Shown: one piece after another, positions 17,974 to 37,491 of the stretch
Position numbering within the stretch: the first letter of the stretch is position 1
Layout: the number at the start of each line of letters is the position of its first letter
NCBI RefSeq assembly: GCF_020166495.1
Contig: NZ_JAINZS010000002.1
Span: forward strand, 310,001-374,000
Reading direction: 5' to 3'
From: Robertkochia aurantiaca
Lineage (GTDB): Bacteria; Bacteroidota; Bacteroidia; Flavobacteriales; Flavobacteriaceae
Length of the DNA: 64,000 nucleotides
Notes under the pieces: generated by a model
Told to the model about the DNA's origin: nothing
The model's database searches: none
The model's input: the letters and a program-made list of their open reading frames with translations, nothing else
Translations under genes and position numbers: made by a program

Positions 17974-18002
17974 TTGCTGTCTTCTTAAAAAGAGTATCTT
18001 TG
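17974..18002 (+). promoter_or_regulatory. Full Bacteroidota promoter of kdsA
   Basis: TTG at 17974-17976, an 18-base spacer, and TATCTTTG at 17995-18002: both elements of the Bacteroidota sigma-ABfr promoter match. The start site would be near 18007, giving a leader of about 15 bases. Confidence 0.7.
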
Positions 18003-26758: not shown

Positions 26759-27158
26759 GGGGTCGACTGGTTTTGACAGCGAGTCTAATTGAGTTGTAAG
26801 CATGCAGAGCGCTGGGATATAGCTCTTAAATCTCATATTTCACACTTTTTTAAATGGCGAGAATAACTACGCTCTTGCTGCCTAATCTGAATTCATAGTA
26901 AGATTTTTGGCCACGTCCCTGTAAGACAGGGAGGCGAGATGTCTCTGGGAAGCCCTTGTTGATGGCGTCCCATTTAGAGGCACCATAAAAGTCAACATAG
27001 AACTTGTGTTGCTTCGTCATGAGTTCAAATCTCAAAGAAGCTAAGCGTGTAGTAGGCTGTTTCCGGTCAGCTGCACGTCGACAATCAATCGGAAACTAAG
27101 CATGTAGAAAGCAACTGAGTTGCTTGTTTGGACGGGAGTTCGAATCTCCCCGACTCCA
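26759..27158 (+). ncRNA. ssrA: Transfer-messenger RNA (tmRNA)
   Basis: The 5' end GGGGTCG pairs with CGACTCC at 27151-27157 to give a 7 bp tRNA-like acceptor stem with one G-U pair; the discriminator A is 27158 and CCA is not encoded. The 5' D-arm motif (GACTGGTTTTGACAG) and the 3' T-arm (GGGAGTTCGAATCTCCC) are intact. The tag frame GGC GAG AAT AAC TAC GCT CTT GCT GCC TAA gives GENNYALAA. tmRNA frees stalled ribosomes and tags the products for proteolysis. At 400 bases it is the usual bacterial one-piece form. A strong terminator follows 12 bases later. Its 3' end borders a repeat-rich accessory segment. Confidence 0.97.
26856..26885 (+). other. tmRNA proteolysis-tag reading frame
   Basis: Ten codons including the TAA stop encode GENNYALAA; the resume codon is GGC at 26856. 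The LAA end is the classic ClpXP degron, and GENNYALAA is the form typical of Bacteroidota. Confidence 0.93.
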
Positions 27159-27169
27159 CAATCACTCAC

Positions 27170-27202: not shown

Positions 27203-27241
27203 TTTTATAAAGCTGAGCCAAGCTCGCTTGAGCGAAAGCTG

Positions 27242-27347
27242 AAGAAAACACAAAACCGGCAAAGGTGAAACCTTTGGCTGGGGTTTGTAATTGCAAAATG
27301 GGAGGCAGTGGAGATCAACGAGGAGCAACAGCGACGAAGGTAATCTC
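27242..27347. repeat. Dispersed repeat, 5' variant (unit 1)
   Basis: Contains AAGAAAACACAAAACCGG and a GAGGCAGTGGAGATCAACG...GACGAAGGTAATCTCC part shared with units 2-4. Its first 40 bases recur at 35132. Frames reading through it give only repeat-derived peptides. The 27203-27953 interval holds only this repeat family. Confidence 0.75.
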
Positions 27348-27404
27348 CCTAAGGAAAACGCTACAAGAATAGGATATTCTAATAAACAGCAGTTACAACA
27401 ATAA

Positions 27405-27580
27405 CTCCCTCCCTCCGTGGCTATGCCACGGTATCCCCTCCCCGAGAGAGGGGAAGAATAAAATTCTTTCAACATAGGAGAATACTTTAGACAAGGGTTT
27501 GTAATTGCATGCCGGTTCCGGGCAGGTAAACACAATGGGAGACAATGGAGATCACGAACCACAAAGTGGTGAGTAATCTC
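27405..27580. repeat. Dispersed ~240 bp repeat, unit 2 (diverged/short)
   Basis: Starts CTCCCTCCCTCCGTGGC with a palindrome around CCGTGGC...GCCACGG, then CCCCTCCCCGAGAGAGGGG. The conserved core AAGAATAAAATTCTTTCAACATAGGAGAATACTTTAGACAAGGG follows (first half AAGAATAAAATTCTTTCAAC). The end is altered (GAACCACAAAGTGGTGAG). Confidence 0.85.
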
Positions 27581-27627
27581 TAGTTGAATATAAACCCTTT
27601 ATAAGTAAAACTGCCAAGACAACAACA

Positions 27628-27870
27628 CCCTCCCCTCCGTGGCACTTCCACGGTATTCCCTCCCAGAGGGAGGGGAAGAATAAAATTCTTTCAACATAGG
27701 AGAATGCTTTAGACAAGGGTTTGTAATTTCCTGCCGGTTTCGGGCAGGTAAACATAATGGGAGGCAGTGGAGATCACCGGGGAGCAAAGCGACGAAGGTA
27801 GTCTACTAAACAAAACAGTAATATGACTGCCTTTTACCACGGAGGTGGACCTTCGCGGGAGCGGGGGGGG
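27628..27870. repeat. Dispersed ~240 bp repeat, unit 3
   Basis: Complete copy: CCTCCCCTCCGTGGC start, hairpin-forming CCCTCCCAGAGGGAGGGG, the AAGAATAAAATTCTTTCAAC core, and an ATATGACTGCCTTTTACCAC...GGAGCGGGG end. Same orientation and nearly the same sequence as unit 4 at 31824, so the two flank the pirin-Crp-DUF3604 genes as direct repeats. Confidence 0.88.
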
Positions 27871-31646: not shown

Positions 31647-31823
31647 ATATTTCTCTCGTGCCAGAGACTGCATTTACATGAAATTCACCGGCCATGCCTG
31701 CCTGTTTTCAGACGAAGGAGGTCCCACCGAGGTAGCCCCTGTTTGCCAAGGGGCAGACTCTGCTACAGCCCGGATGTTTTTTGCCATAGGTCTAAAAAAA
31801 TCTGATGCATATTGTTCTGACAA

Positions 31824-32066
31824 CTCCCTCCCCTCCGTGGCACGGCCACGGTATCCCCTCCCCGAGGGAGGGGAAGAATAAAATTCTTTCAACATAGGAG
31901 AATACTTTAGACAAGGGTTTATAATTGCATGCCGGTTTCGGGCAGGTAAAAATAATGAGAGGCAGTGGAGATCACCGAGGAGCAACAGCGACGAAGGTAA
32001 TCTCCTAAACAAAACAGCAATATGACTGCCTTTTACCACGGAGGTGGACCTCCGCCGGAGCGGGGT
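31824..32066. repeat. Dispersed ~240 bp repeat, unit 4
   Basis: Complete copy: CTCCCTCCCCTCCGTGGC, palindrome CCGTGGC-acg-GCCACGG, palindrome CCCCTCCCCGAGGGAGGGG, the AAGAATAAAATTCTTTCAAC core, a TGCCGG-tttc-GGGCA hairpin, and the ACCTCCGCCGGAGCGGGG end. No gene is seen between 31647 and 32130; the open frames over it are repeat-derived. Confidence 0.9.
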
Positions 32067-32130: not shown

Positions 32131-32763
32131 CTACTCGGGGATTTCATTAAAGGTCGCAATAAAGCCATTGTATGCTCGCTCTCTGTTAGACACTGGCATC
32201 TCTACTACGGACACATCTAATACCTCCTCACCTTTTTCAACCTTACCATTATCGGTGAACCGGTAATACATGAGCCCACCGACAACTATATTGCTATTAC
32301 TGTGAAATTCAAACTCAATTTCATTCGTATTCTCTACTGTAAAAGTTGGCAAATAGAGTGAATCCCGCCATGCCTGGTACAAGGTTAAATGAAATTTACT
32401 GGTAACCACACCATCACCTTTGGGAGGAACATACAACTTAATCTTGCCCTTGAGAAGACTATCGTCATGCTTCGACCAATATCCTTCAAAATCATAAAAA
32501 ATACTATTCAGCGTATCCAGTTCCCCTGCTTTGTAAACCATGTCTTTACCAAAAACTGTATCTCCTCTTCTAGAAACGTACATCTCAAGCATCCTGATAG
32601 TACTATCCTCCTCGCCCGCATAGCTAAGCCAGGATTTTTCATATGAATCAAGATGATTGATTCGAGAATCCAAGTCTATTGGTATAGATTTTTTTGTGGA
32701 CTCTTCGCATCCACAAATCAAGGAAAGAATTAAGACAATTATTGAAGCACGTATCATTATCAA
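32131..32763 (-). CDS. Lipoprotein of unknown function (paralogue of the next gene)
   Basis: 210 residues with a type II signal (IIVLILSLICGC lipobox, Cys19). The mature part carries SYEKSWLSYAGEEDSTIRMLEMY, DTVFGKDMVYKAGELDTLNSIFYDFEGYW, FEFHSNSNIVVGGLMYYRFTDNGKV and ends VEMPVSNRERAYNGFI. The 32775 gene matches it segment by segment (DTVWGKRFFY, DTVNSMFYELDW, VGGLRYS..TNNGRV, MPVANKKRAYNPF), so they are tandem duplicates with an 11 bp gap. I do not recognise the family. AT-rich relative to the core genes. Confidence 0.75.
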   Translation of the reverse strand: MIMIRASIIVLILSLICGCEESTKKSIPIDLDSRINHLDSYEKSWLSYAGEEDSTIRMLEMYVSRRGDTVFGKDMVYKAGELDTLNSIFYDFEGYWSKHDDSLLKGKIKLYVPPKGDGVVTSKFHLTLYQAWRDSLYLPTFTVENTNEIEFEFHSNSNIVVGGLMYYRFTDNGKVEKGEEVLDVSVVEMPVSNRERAYNGFIATFNEIPE

Positions 32764-32774
32764 TCTAAATTAGA

Positions 32775-33392
32775 TCATTCATCAATGATCCTGTTAAAAG
32801 GGTTATAAGCTCTTTTCTTGTTAGCAACGGGCATACTGATTTGTAAATAATCTAATTCGATCTCACCAGCTACAACACGTCCGTTATTGGTAGCTTTGGA
32901 ATACCTTAACCCACCAACTATTGCGTCTGTATTACTCTTAAATTCAAATTCTAGCCAATTTTTACCTTCCTCGCTGAAGCTTATGGTCTCAATGGTATCC
33001 CGCCAAGCTCTTAAAAGCAATAAACTGAAGCTTTGGTTTGAAACTGGACCATCACCATCTGGACGATCATAAAATTTAATTCTACCTTTCACCAGACTAT
33101 CCTTATCCCACGTCCAATCTAACTCATAAAACATGCTATTTACGGTGTCAATTTTGGCATCCTGGTAGAAGAATCTTTTACCCCAAACTGTATCTTTTTT
33201 GACTGAAGTGTAATACTCAAATAACAATAGAGGATTACCATCCTCATCCTGATGTGTGAGCCAGCCTCTATGATAGGTATCTTCACTATCGAAAGTCGCC
33301 AAATCAATATACTCTTTCCTAACCGGCCTATCACAAGAAGGAACGGAGATTAAAAACAATCCAAAAAGAATCAAAGTATATCTAATTACCAT
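32775..33392 (-). CDS. Lipoprotein of unknown function (tandem paralogue)
   Basis: 205 residues. The signal has ILFGLFLISVPSC as lipobox (Cys20). The same conserved blocks as the 32131 gene occur in the same order, with roughly a third of positions identical by eye, so the duplication is old. First gene of the two-gene operon. No enzymatic motif. Possibly a partner or immunity-like pair, but the sequence gives no evidence for that. Confidence 0.75.
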   Translation of the reverse strand: MVIRYTLILFGLFLISVPSCDRPVRKEYIDLATFDSEDTYHRGWLTHQDEDGNPLLLFEYYTSVKKDTVWGKRFFYQDAKIDTVNSMFYELDWTWDKDSLVKGRIKFYDRPDGDGPVSNQSFSLLLLRAWRDTIETISFSEEGKNWLEFEFKSNTDAIVGGLRYSKATNNGRVVAGEIELDYLQISMPVANKKRAYNPFNRIIDE

Positions 33393-33696
33393 AAATACCC
33401 CTTAGTTGAATTAAGGAGCAATATATAGATTTTAAATTATATGGATATAGTCTAAACTTACAGGTCGCTAGTTCCGTATAACCTATTATATTTCCAACCT
33501 ACCTTAACTCACCTTTTGTTTGCGTGTGTATCTGAAACCCTAGTTTACACAGAGTCGCACCTATACAGATAAGCCTTACAAAAAACATAACAGACGACTA
33601 CATGAGGTAAGTTGTTCGATACAATATATTTTCCTTTCTTTATACCCCTCCCACATTCAAGTATTAGTTTCATCACAAGATTAAATTGACGCACTT
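33393..33696. other. AT-rich intergenic stretch
   Basis: No gene on either strand. It should hold divergent promoters for the lipoprotein pair and the GIY-YIG gene. A GAGGTAAGTTGTTCG segment at 33603 resembles the GAGGTAAGTTTG promoter at 34666, but no complete -33/-7 pair is certain. Confidence 0.4.
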
Positions 33697-34539
33697 ATGA
33701 GCAGACCTCAAACGATCCAGATCTTTCTTCCAGACGGATCCCCCAGAAGTGTCAAAATCGCAGAAATCACTAATAGGGTTGTAAAGGCAATCTTGGTTCC
33801 CAGGAATAAGTTAGACTACATTGCAAATCGGGAAGAACTCCGGAATGTTGGTATTTACTTCTTATTTGGTGAGTCTGCGGAAAAGGCGAAACCAGTAGTA
33901 TACGTAGGAGAGGCAGAAGACAGCCTTGATCGCCTCAGACAACATAATCGGACTAAAGAGTTTTGGAATCATGCTGTTGTCATGGTATCTAAGATTAATG
34001 CATTTACAAAGTCTCATGTTAAGTTTCTGGAACATACCGCTATTCAAGAAGCAAAAGATTCCAATCGTTACACTACAGAAAACCTAACAGCACCTACTCG
34101 TCCGTTCGTGACTGAATCAATGGAAGCTGACCTTTATGACAGCTTTGAGACTATCAAAATATTACTCTCTACTCTTGGGTATCCAGTGTATGACAAAATC
34201 AACAAGGAACAGGTGGCAGATAAAGAGCTTATGTATCTTAAGGGAAGAGGCATTGAAGCAGAGGGTGATCTTATCGATGATGGTTTCGTAGTTTTTAAAG
34301 GATCCTATGCCAAAAAAGAGACTACCCCCTCTTGCCATGATCACCTCATCAACCTACGGGAGAAATTAATCAGAGATGAGGTTCTTATAGAAGACTCCGG
34401 TAATTTCCGGTTCGATCAAGATTATGTCTTCAATTCACCTAGTACAGCCGGGGGAGTTGTATTGGGCAGAAGCACTAATGGCTGGACAAAGTGGAAGGAT
34501 CGAGCAGGCAAAACACTAGATGAGCTTAAGAGAAGCTAA
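33697..34539 (+). CDS. GIY-YIG nuclease family protein with DUF4357-like C-terminus
   Basis: 280 residues. The GIY-YIG core is at residues ~50-130: NVGIYFLFGES gives GIY, and VVYVGEAEDSLDRLRQHN gives the YIG equivalent (YVG) with the following catalytic-Arg helix. FLEHTAIQEAKDSNRYTTEN supplies the late Glu. The C-terminal third (TAGGVVLGRSTNGWTKWKDRAGKTLDEL) looks like DUF4357, common in orphan restriction-type proteins. It may be a DNA endonuclease of a defence or mobile element, but no methyltransferase or partner is adjacent. It sits alone in AT-rich DNA. Confidence 0.82.
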   Translation: MSRPQTIQIFLPDGSPRSVKIAEITNRVVKAILVPRNKLDYIANREELRNVGIYFLFGESAEKAKPVVYVGEAEDSLDRLRQHNRTKEFWNHAVVMVSKINAFTKSHVKFLEHTAIQEAKDSNRYTTENLTAPTRPFVTESMEADLYDSFETIKILLSTLGYPVYDKINKEQVADKELMYLKGRGIEAEGDLIDDGFVVFKGSYAKKETTPSCHDHLINLREKLIRDEVLIEDSGNFRFDQDYVFNSPSTAGGVVLGRSTNGWTKWKDRAGKTLDELKRS

Positions 34540-34646
34540 CAGATGTCAAGTCCTATTTCCTTTAAAAAGACCATATATAATCTGGCCTAAGTCCACATTT
34601 CAACAATCGATGTTGAAAGCTTTTGTTAATTGTGATACAATTGACC

Positions 34647-34677
34647 TTGTGGCGAGTAAGCATAAGAGGTAAGTTTG
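34647..34677 (+). promoter_or_regulatory. Full Bacteroidota promoter of a small transcription unit
   Basis: TTG at 34647-34649, a 20-base spacer, and TAAGTTTG at 34670-34677 match both promoter elements. A transcript from ~34683 would run ~185 bases to the terminator at 34869. Confidence 0.65.
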
Positions 34678-34693
34678 TATAGATGCATAAAAA

Positions 34694-34716
34694 AAGGTGT
34701 GCTGGGAACACACCTT
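34694..34716 (+). other. 5'-leader hairpin of the small transcription unit
   Basis: AAGGTGTG-ctgggaa-CACACCTT: a perfect 8 bp stem with a 7-base loop, about 11 bases after the predicted transcription start. Too A/T-poor at its end for a terminator; more likely a stabilising leader structure. Confidence 0.6.
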
Positions 34717-34772
34717 AAATGCCGGAAAATTGGCCCGAGGTTCAATTGAATATTAATTTAAACCTTAAGCTT

Positions 34773-34829
34773 ATGTCTGAGACATTTTATGTTCTGGTCG
34801 TTCTATACTTATTGAGCCGCCAGAAGTAA
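34773..34829 (+). CDS. Putative 18-residue hydrophobic peptide
   Basis: Frame MSETFYVLVVLYLLSRQK, then TAA. The core FYVLVVLYLL is strongly hydrophobic and is followed by basic residues, as in small single-pass or membrane-surface peptides and some type I toxins. Support for expression comes from the setting: a full TTG-N20-TAAGTTTG promoter 96 bases upstream, a leader hairpin, and a terminator 8 bases after the stop, all on one strand with nothing else inside. It has no Shine-Dalgarno site, as is normal for this phylum. The alternative is that the transcript is a noncoding RNA and the frame is accidental. I recognise no known family. Confidence 0.45.
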   Translation: MSETFYVLVVLYLLSRQK

Positions 34830-34837
34830 TTCACATA

Positions 34838-34869
34838 AACCGTTTAGCTTAGACTAAGCGGTTTTTTTA
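34838..34869 (+). terminator. Rho-independent terminator of the small transcription unit
   Basis: AACCGTTTAG-cttaga-CTAAGCGGTT then TTTTTT: a 10 bp stem with one G-U pair. No annotated gene ends here apart from the 18-codon frame, and the GIY-YIG stop is 300 bases upstream. Confidence 0.85.
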
Positions 34870-34961
34870 TTTGTTTCAAATATAAAACTTAAATCAAAAG
34901 AACAATAGAAAAGAGACCCCAATATATCAACAAGCGATTTATTAAGCTGACAATAAGCAAC

Positions 34962-35093
34962 TTAAATATTAACAACAGTCTCTATAACGATGTTCATCTC
35001 AACTAGCTGCCTACTCTTATTCTCGTCACTCCATATACGAGCTAACTGAAGCCCGTAATCCGATGGGGTCTTACCTATGTATTCCAAGAACAT
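34962..35093 (-). pseudogene. Short ORF, probable C-terminal gene remnant
   Basis: 43 codons from an ATG at 35093 (MFLEYIGKTPSDYGLQLARI, continuing to VVNI-stop). The composition is protein-like. The frame stays open another 13 codons upstream (FLINITTQSKEQ) to a TAG at the edge of a repeat fragment (35132). This looks like the tail of a larger gene whose front was lost where the repeat now lies. Family not recognised. It could instead be a real small gene. Confidence 0.4.
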
Positions 35094-35131
35094 TTGCTCC
35101 TTACTTTGCGTAGTAATATTTATAAGGAACT

Positions 35132-35173
35132 AAAGAAAACACAAAACCGGAAGGTGAAGCCTTTGGCAGAGGT
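35132..35173. repeat. Fragment of the dispersed repeat (unit 1 type)
   Basis: AAAGAAAACACAAAACCGG followed by AAGGTGAAGCCTTTGGC, closely matching 27242-27283. It abuts the remnant ORF. 35174-35356 shows nothing further. Confidence 0.75.
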
Positions 35174-35356
35174 CTGTTCCTGCCAGCCGGCTCAAGACAG
35201 GAATACAGTACTGTATGTTATCCCCTACAGAAATAAAGCGCCTTATTAATAGATCTAAGCACCAATGAAGGCAATAACATGAGGTAAAGGCTGATAAAAC
35301 GGATTCACAAAAAAGAACTTGTTCACATCACTAATTTTTATGTTTTAAAATATTTT

Positions 35357-35389
35357 ATTATTGTTTTACAATAATTATTTATAGTTTTA
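35357..35389 (+). promoter_or_regulatory. Promoter with overlapping inverted repeat, DUF2975-XRE operon
   Basis: ATTATTG-tttta-CAATAAT (35357-35375) is a perfect 7 bp inverted repeat. It contains the TTG of a -33 box (35361-35363); 18 bases on lies TAGTTTTA (35382-35389), close to TAnnTTTG. An operator placed over the promoter would suit autoregulation by the XRE protein. Confidence 0.5.
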
Positions 35390-35409
35390 CGGCATAAATA
35401 AAATCTAAT

Positions 35410-35934
35410 ATGAATAATAAGTACCTCAAAACTGCTATTGTTTTAGCCCGCCTGATGCAACTCGGTTACGGTGCCTTGATAGTATTGTTTGCTTACCTTT
35501 TACTTATTCCTGCTTTAGGGGGGGCGATTCCTCCGGAACTACAGGATGCGGGAAATAAATTCTTCTATGTTGAGTTCAGTAATGCCCGGGAGATCTTTAG
35601 CAATACCTTCAATATGGTCTTCTATTCCCTACGGGCCATTCTGCTGATCGTGTTATTCATACTATCGCTGGAATCACTGATACGAATCATCAGATCCGTA
35701 AAAACCATCAATGCTTTTAAGCAGGAGACCATCAGGCAGTTTTCAAGAATCGGGTTCCTTATGCTGATATGTTTCATCATCACCCTCTTTGATATGAGCA
35801 CTGAAGGAAATGGATATACCATCACACTTTCACTCGAGATTCAGTATTTGCTCTTTGCCTTTCTCAGCTGGATCCTGGCAGAGGTATTTAAGGAAGGAAA
35901 CCGATTATGGGAAGAAAGCCAGTTAACCATCTAA
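35410..35934 (+). CDS. DUF2975 membrane protein
   Basis: 174 residues with four membrane helices (LGYGALIVLFAYLLLIPAL, FYSLRAILLIVLFILSL, IGFLMLICFIITLFDM, IQYLLFAFLSWILAEVF). The FILSLESLIRIIRSVKTINAF and SWILAEVFKEGNRLWEESQLTI segments are DUF2975 hallmarks. The family is nearly always paired with a small YozG-type XRE regulator, as here (gap 10 bp). The role is unknown; a membrane sensor that controls the regulator is a common suggestion but unproven. Confidence 0.88.
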   Translation: MNNKYLKTAIVLARLMQLGYGALIVLFAYLLLIPALGGAIPPELQDAGNKFFYVEFSNAREIFSNTFNMVFYSLRAILLIVLFILSLESLIRIIRSVKTINAFKQETIRQFSRIGFLMLICFIITLFDMSTEGNGYTITLSLEIQYLLFAFLSWILAEVFKEGNRLWEESQLTI

Positions 35935-35944
35935 AAAACTCCCT

Positions 35945-36148
35945 ATGCCAATAATTGTAAACCTTGACGTCATGATGGCTAAAAGAAAGATGCGTTCAAA
36001 AGATTTAGCTGTAAAGATCGGTGTTACCGAGGCTAACCTCTCCATTCTAAAAACTGGAAAGGCAAAAGCGGTACGTTTCTCAACCCTGGAAGCGCTTTGC
36101 GAAGCACTGGACTGTCAGCCGGGAGATCTATTGGAATACCAGGAATAA
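35945..36148 (+). CDS. Small XRE-family regulator (YozG-like)
   Basis: 67 residues, a single helix-turn-helix: MMAKRKMRSKDLAVKIGVTEANLSILKTGKAKAVRF, then the family ending LEALCEALDCQPGDLLEYQE. It forms an operon with the DUF2975 gene. A perfect inverted repeat over the operon promoter is a plausible binding site. Met11 is an alternative start. Confidence 0.9.
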   Translation: MPIIVNLDVMMAKRKMRSKDLAVKIGVTEANLSILKTGKAKAVRFSTLEALCEALDCQPGDLLEYQE

Positions 36149-37095: not shown

Positions 37096-37491
37096 TTAAT
37101 TGAACTTTTTGAAGTTCACCTTCGCCTTGGCCATTTCCTGACTGTCGAGATACAGCTGATAACCTTTCTCCAGCAAAAATTCTTTTCTTTCCGATCCTTT
37201 TAATTCTTCCTCCATAATGAGAGCATCCTTTTCCTGGATGCGTACAACGAAAGGAGCCTCTCCGATGTTTTTAACTACTGCTACACTTTTACTGTCTCCA
37301 TAGGGATTCCTGGCAGCATCCTGCCCGGGGCCCTTACCCGTGATCGACATGCTTTGCTGCGGACTCAGCTCAAAAACCGAATCGCTGCTGCCACACGACT
37401 GGAACAACTGAAACACAAGCAATAACAATAATCCGTTGACAAATAAACAATCAGACCTGAGCCGTATTGAAATTACTATCTTTCCTTTCAT
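37096..37491 (-). CDS. Small lipoprotein of unknown function
   Basis: 131 residues. A hydrophobic stretch LLLLLVFQLFQSCGSS supplies a lipobox-like FQSC at Cys33, after an unusually long basic n-region (KGKIVISIRLRSD). The mature part includes VVKNIGEAPFVVRIQEKDALI and ends AKAKVNFKKFN, suggesting a small beta sandwich. Family not recognised. It follows the cls gene with a 39 bp gap on the same strand, so probably one operon. Confidence 0.65.
   Translation of the reverse strand: MKGKIVISIRLRSDCLFVNGLLLLLVFQLFQSCGSSDSVFELSPQQSMSITGKGPGQDAARNPYGDSKSVAVVKNIGEAPFVVRIQEKDALIMEEELKGSERKEFLLEKGYQLYLDSQEMAKAKVNFKKFN

Follow-up and report, generated by a model that had tools for sequence, protein, structure and literature searches.

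Background

Among described systems, the locus reported here most closely resembles in layout the Ibs/Sib pairs of Escherichia coli, in which a small hydrophobic peptide is encoded opposite an antisense RNA that spans its full coding region as well as its translation start, and of which strain MG1655 carries five copies with proven toxicity (as given in the accessible parts of PMC4147584 and PMC8309996). The peptide IbsC has 19 residues and, according to the excerpted text of PMC8309996, remains toxic after truncation to 15 residues of which at least 10 are hydrophobic. Here, we analyzed a stretch of 64,000 nucleotides (nt) from Robertkochia aurantiaca (contig NZ_JAINZS010000002.1, positions 310,001 to 374,000; hereafter “the window”), which includes an 870-base-pair (bp) gap between a DUF4357 gene and a DUF2975 gene. 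The locus in this gap can be read on both strands, very probably as two convergent, overlapping small-RNA transcripts, one of which would encode an 18-residue hydrophobic peptide.

Two further reports provide points of comparison closer in phylogeny. Seven type-I-like cis-antisense pairs are described in Bacteroides thetaiotaomicron, a member of the same phylum (PMC7366714, in the sections available). Compared by description with that part of the report, the Robertkochia locus similarly has oppositely encoded antisense small RNAs and a candidate small frame, whereas the B. thetaiotaomicron pairs are detected transcripts with a candidate frame in both partners, and here the transcripts are predicted and the frame lies on one strand. 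The independent transcripts of Flavobacterium psychrophilum (PMC9723704, in part) are of similar typical size (median 176 bp), independently transcribed, and often structured, although our unit has no match in the four other genomes of its genus. Before that work on a cyanobacterium, according to its authors, type I toxin-antitoxins were known only from Proteobacteria, Firmicutes, and Tenericutes, and Bacteroidetes were not among them (PMC12390103, in the portion accessible). Among the papers listed on type I toxins in Bacteroidetes, Bacteroides, Flavobacterium, and Flavobacteriaceae, from which subscription papers were mostly missing, we found no tested flavobacterial case. A tested case here would extend the range of type I toxin-antitoxins, and would show that such pairs can be detected independently of homology, from a pair of inward-facing promoters and a pair of terminators that share a short piece of DNA.

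Relative to Ibs/Sib, the Robertkochia peptide is of about equal size, and the predicted antisense RNA likewise overlaps the whole coding region together with the translation start. Unlike Ibs/Sib, the unit is present in one copy and is a prediction from sequence, and the two predicted RNAs are complementary nearly end to end, with either RNA starting in the terminator of the other. Because no homology to Ibs/Sib was found (the frame had no Pfam or NCBIfam match and the locus no Rfam match; E. coli genomes were not searched), we claim a likeness in layout, not membership in Ibs/Sib or type I. We favor, at a probability of about 0.4, a cis-antisense pair that acts like a type I toxin-antitoxin through its peptide.

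Two convergent promoters and their terminators

The elements of the locus are as follows:

34647..34677, plus strand: promoter of the sense RNA, TTG-N20-TAAGTTTG (TTG 34647-34649, box 34670-34677), read from the sequence
34682..34869, plus strand: predicted sense RNA of about 188 nt, with the start placed from the box and the end from the terminator
34905-34877, minus strand: inward-facing promoter of the antisense RNA, TTG-N18-TATATTTG, read from the sequence
34872-34687, minus strand: predicted antisense RNA of about 186 nt
34689..34716, minus strand: intrinsic terminator of the antisense RNA, from sequence and fold energy
34837..34869, plus strand: intrinsic terminator of the sense RNA, also the 5' hairpin of the antisense RNA, from sequence and fold energy
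34773..34829, plus strand: 18-codon frame MSETFYVLVVLYLLSRQK with the favored start (ATG 34773; TAA ending at 34829)
34719..34829, plus strand: 36-codon alternative of that frame, from ATG 34719

Transcript starts were set by placing the promoter box at -12 to -5, its position in F. psychrophilum (PMC9723704, in the part available). A preliminary description, made from the letters and their open reading frames, had proposed a promoter, a hairpin, an 18-codon frame, and a terminator on the plus strand, and all four are indeed present in the sequence where it placed them. It had also taken the hairpin at 34694-34716 for a structured leader and had seen no antisense RNA, and on both points the minus strand leads to a different view. 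A full promoter and a terminator on that strand delimit a predicted RNA that covers the whole unit. The hairpin (stem AAGGTGTG/CACACCTT, loop of 7 nt) is followed on the minus strand by seven T (opposite A 34689-34695) and is therefore better explained as the minus-strand terminator, in agreement with its fold energy of -12.1 kcal/mol as minus RNA vs. -10.5 as plus RNA. No minus-strand gene lies near enough to need this terminator, the next one to the right ending at 37096. Conversely, the plus-strand terminator (stem 34837-34864, then a T-run) folds at -12.3 kcal/mol as plus RNA and -9.4 as minus RNA, so that either hairpin suits better the strand that carries its T-run. In a type I system, the peptide is toxic and an antisense RNA that can base-pair with its message relieves the toxicity; here, the two predicted RNAs are mutually complementary over 183 nt of the unit.

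The promoters, terminators, overlap, and frame are drawn from the sequence, and from them we infer transcription, translation, pairing, membrane insertion, and toxicity. In the favored explanation, the plus RNA would be a short messenger RNA for the 18-residue peptide and the minus RNA its cis-antisense RNA, with the 5' hairpin of either serving as terminator of the other. Pairing would probably start at the complementary hairpin loops, which at 34694-34716 contain GGG on one RNA and CCC on the other; the antisense RNA would cover the start codon of the peptide and so block translation, and the resulting duplex would be offered to RNase III. Sense RNA that escaped would yield a peptide that inserts into the inner membrane. 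Cleavage by RNase III and pairing that begins at the loops are both familiar from other antisense systems.

The convergent pair compared with chance

Having defined these elements, we evaluated how often they would arise by chance under a strict promoter rule (TTG-N17-21-TANNTTTG) and a strict terminator rule (stem of 8-12 pairs with at least 4 G-C, and at least 5 T in 8). The terminator rule was altered once; its first version missed the plus terminator and found the minus unit only, and under it 0 of 2000 shuffles held any unit. Across both strands of the window, three promoters were found, at 17995 (plus), 34670 (plus), and 34884 (minus), two of them at this locus, along with 13 strong terminators counted by strand, and the only promoter-to-terminator units shorter than 350 nt were the two described here. 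When the 870-bp gap was dinucleotide-shuffled 4000 times, no such unit arose on either strand, the shuffles having on average 0.13 promoters and 0.021 terminators (the latter from 1000 shuffles). With a looser terminator rule applied to 33500-36000, the 2 terminators found were not above chance (shuffle mean 1.8). In a wider background of 820,810 bases, consisting of the window and 155 loci (some overlapping one another, and excluding 10 loci that span the present locus or the 27-kb copy of the repeat), 13 units were found and a single convergent pair, namely this locus. The convergent-pair signature therefore selected one place in 0.82 Mb.

Facing promoters by themselves carry no signal, since in the five genomes of the genus we counted 16 rows of facing boxes separated by 180-210 and preceded by TTG on one side, vs. 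17 with a reversed-pattern control. With TTG on both sides, two loci remained, this one and one in a second genome (G002), and of these two only the present locus had terminators on both strands (loose terminator rule). These counts bear on the reading that the signals are accidents in a noncoding, repeat-bearing insertion spot, with at most weak pervasive transcription and no selection. The parity of facing boxes with their control is consistent with it, as are the intergenic repeat copy that the gap carries at 35130-35177 and the lack of conservation in relatives described below. Two promoters and two correctly oriented terminators occurring jointly are, however, far beyond what the shuffles produced, and the convergent pair is unique in the wider background; we consider accident improbable.

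We take the TTG-box promoter type, from its sequence context, to be in use in this genome. TTG-N20-TATATTTG directly precedes the tRNA-Thr gene of R. aurantiaca (locus L115), and tRNA genes also lie just downstream of three other facing-box loci (L110, L113, and L114), that is, of all four scanned. In the 150 bp preceding 44 long frames of the window, the -7 box occurred 10 times in sense and 11 times in antisense orientation, compared with 2 sense occurrences of the reversed pattern; the window as a whole showed no enrichment of the box (38 vs. 52 reversed).

Coding potential of the mini-frame and folding of the predicted RNAs

For the peptide pair, the start at ATG 34773 is favored by the predicted fold, in which this codon is more open (0.56-0.88 unpaired) than ATG 34719 (0.09-0.27). 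Adenine at -3, -6, -12, and -13 aids initiation in F. johnsoniae (PMC6847099, in part), and ATG 34773 has A at -6, -12, and -13. The peptide MSETFYVLVVLYLLSRQK has ten hydrophobic or aromatic residues in succession and a basic C-terminus. As for the 36-codon alternative, an ATG frame of at least 36 codons occurred in 5.4% of 5000 shuffles of the plus RNA. On the minus RNA, no ATG frame reaches 5 codons. A possible near-leaderless frame of 11 codons (34683-34718) begins one base past the predicted plus start, and its TAA stands immediately before the in-frame ATG 34719; we give it little weight.

Several observations weigh against the peptide pair, and a first group concerns the frame and the fold. 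ATG 34773 has C at -3, where A is the favored base. For a segment that would cross a membrane, the run of hydrophobic residues is short. Type I toxins are hydrophobic, usually have fewer than 60 residues, and contain a membrane helix; here, the frame gives 18 or 36 residues, and its best 19-residue window scores -5.9 in hydropathy. Among the 5000 plus-RNA shuffles, 57% contained some ATG frame of 12-60 codons, and 2.0% contained a frame at least as hydrophobic. The predicted RNAs fold well as wholes (z of -4.3 on the plus strand and -3.9 as minus RNA, 300 shuffles each), and seven 120-nt segments taken from elsewhere in the gap had z of -1.5 to 0.5. The part between the hairpins folds weakly, with z of -2.2 on the plus strand (6/300 shuffles as good) and -1.1 on the minus strand (38/300), and the fold signal therefore comes mostly from the two terminators.

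The same results bear on the possibility that neither RNA is coding; an RNA from either strand would then act in trans as a regulator, its counterpart would be an antisense sponge that removes it, and the mini-frame would be accidental. The architectural evidence for such an arrangement equals that for the peptide pair, and the weak frame statistics suit it well. It draws little from the fold between the hairpins, the signals on the two strands are silent about any target, and a conserved seed is not searchable without homologues. We regard this arrangement as doubtful.

Search for relatives of the unit

A second group of observations concerns the isolation of the unit. The preliminary description had named a lack of conservation in close relatives as an outcome that would speak against its reading, and no conservation was found in either 59 relatives or 298 family genomes; its comparison with type I toxins thus gains a predicted antisense RNA and goes without conserved relatives. 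Specifically, the locus DNA had no match above chance in the 59 relatives, which include the four other genomes of the genus (best match outside its own genome E 3e-4, in short pieces, most of which lie in the tail of the terminator), and none in the 298 other genomes of the family (best E 2.3e-4, in short AT-rich pieces, with 47 genomes matched at E ≤0.05). The 36-codon frame likewise had no convincing homologue in the 298 genomes: its best other match (E 0.017) contains two internal stops, the next (E 0.075) none, and weak matches at E ≤0.5 occurred in 33 other family genomes. We interpret these DNA and frame matches, from their sequences, as probably due to chance.

Searches of reference collections were negative as well. 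The 36-codon frame had no match in Pfam, NCBIfam, or PADLOC, and the peptide had none in phages. At the gathering scores of Rfam 15, the only match in the whole window was the transfer-messenger RNA (tmRNA) at 26759-27161 and the locus had none, the best score near it (trpB motif, 23.8 of 59 bits) being far under threshold. Viral contigs held no exact copy of the hairpin. With a 2.8-kb query, 26 plasmid records matched, and among the 10 listed only the helix-turn-helix gene did so. The unit is also present in single copy in its genome, on which ground an idea that it is a mobile repeat was rejected. Judging from these searches, the unit appears to be known from one genome only.

The upstream gene and the plus-strand terminator

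Another point against the peptide pair is that the plus terminator might be just that of the upstream gene:

33697..34539, plus strand: DUF4357 gene matching the PADLOC candidate defense family PDC-S14, from Pfam and PADLOC

This gene had been labeled GIY-YIG, an assignment without support in Pfam (E up to 0.001) or NCBIfam (E up to 0.1); the Pfam match is to DUF4357 instead (E 4.7e-23). Residues 1-278 of 280 match the PDC-S14 models of PADLOC (E 7.9e-113), and we accordingly use PDC-S14, a name that occurs in three papers, as a candidate defense label. Relatives of the gene were found at 47 loci in numerous Bacteroidetes and a small number of other bacteria, up to 82% identical, and no match in the other four genomes of the genus; given such similarity in distant relatives and the absence from the genus genomes, the gene appears to have been acquired horizontally.

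This context gives some room to a reading in which the minus RNA alone is a dedicated small RNA. The plus-strand signals would then be the long 3' untranslated region and terminator of the upstream gene, and the minus RNA would lower expression of that gene by pairing with this untranslated region. Consistent with it, no plus-strand terminator was called between the stop of the upstream gene at 34539 and position 34837, a lone plus promoter of the TTG-box kind occurred in 4.6% of the gap shuffles, and the gene matches a candidate defense family. Yet the plus promoter is full, and the flanks (up to 4 kb) of the 47 relatives held no match to the unit better than E 0.5 and no convergent pair, from which it follows that the upstream gene does not depend on the unit. 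We therefore judge this reading unlikely.

A possible operator shared with a ribonucleotide reductase gene

Between the upstream gene and the plus promoter lies an inverted repeat:

34598..34618, no strand: inverted repeat TTTCAACA-N5-TGTTGAAA, possible operator, read from the sequence

Its exact form occurs in the genome at this place only, and the sole genome copy with 1 mismatch is located upstream of the gene for the ribonucleotide reductase small chain (Pfam Ribonuc_red_sm, E 1e-111). The similarity extends over 37 bases, with 86% identity between 34592-34628 and the region upstream of the reductase gene (G000 C2:562207-562243). Reductase small-chain loci were identified in 25 of 40 genomes at E 1e-60 or better, and in 6 of these 25 the pattern TTTCAACA-N5-TGTTRAAA is present 135-142 bp upstream of the gene, the other 19 having at best 3 to 6 mismatches. 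None of 2500 shuffled reductase upstream regions came within 0 or 1 mismatch. For this comparison, the pattern had been broadened to R at one position after earlier hits were known. In that earlier search, the pattern with up to 1 mismatch occurred in 16 of 40 genomes vs. 7 for a reversed control, so that isolated hits of the repeat are not all meaningful. The repeat is, on this sequence comparison, a possible operator for some regulator. A DnaA-box interpretation was not supported, since a 20-kb region surrounding dnaA contained 2 half-sites without any clustering; this negative is not decisive, as the origin may sit elsewhere.

Should the repeat common to this locus and the reductase gene prove a true operator, it would link the pair to the supply of DNA precursors. 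That all features would hold together, as an end-to-end complementary type I pair of Bacteroidota whose 5' hairpins serve mutually as terminators, located beside a candidate anti-phage gene and under a regulator common with the reductase gene, we consider very improbable.

Other features of the neighborhood

A search of 40 genomes located the DUF2975 gene that bounds the gap in 2, its own included. In the other (G001), the helix-turn-helix neighbor is kept and the upstream DNA is different. Within the gap, a 43-codon frame on the minus strand (34962-35093), without a Pfam or NCBIfam match, resembles a gene remnant. On the same strand at 32131-33392, two adjacent genes without a Pfam match at E 0.001 are 41% identical to each other, and this gene pair is, judging from that identity, a tandem duplicate. 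The intergenic repeat downstream of the unit at 35130-35177 is an 86% copy of the one at 27239-27288, just after the tmRNA gene, and a second intergenic repeat family (27398-27816 and 31820-32015) recurs in several places at about 86-94%.
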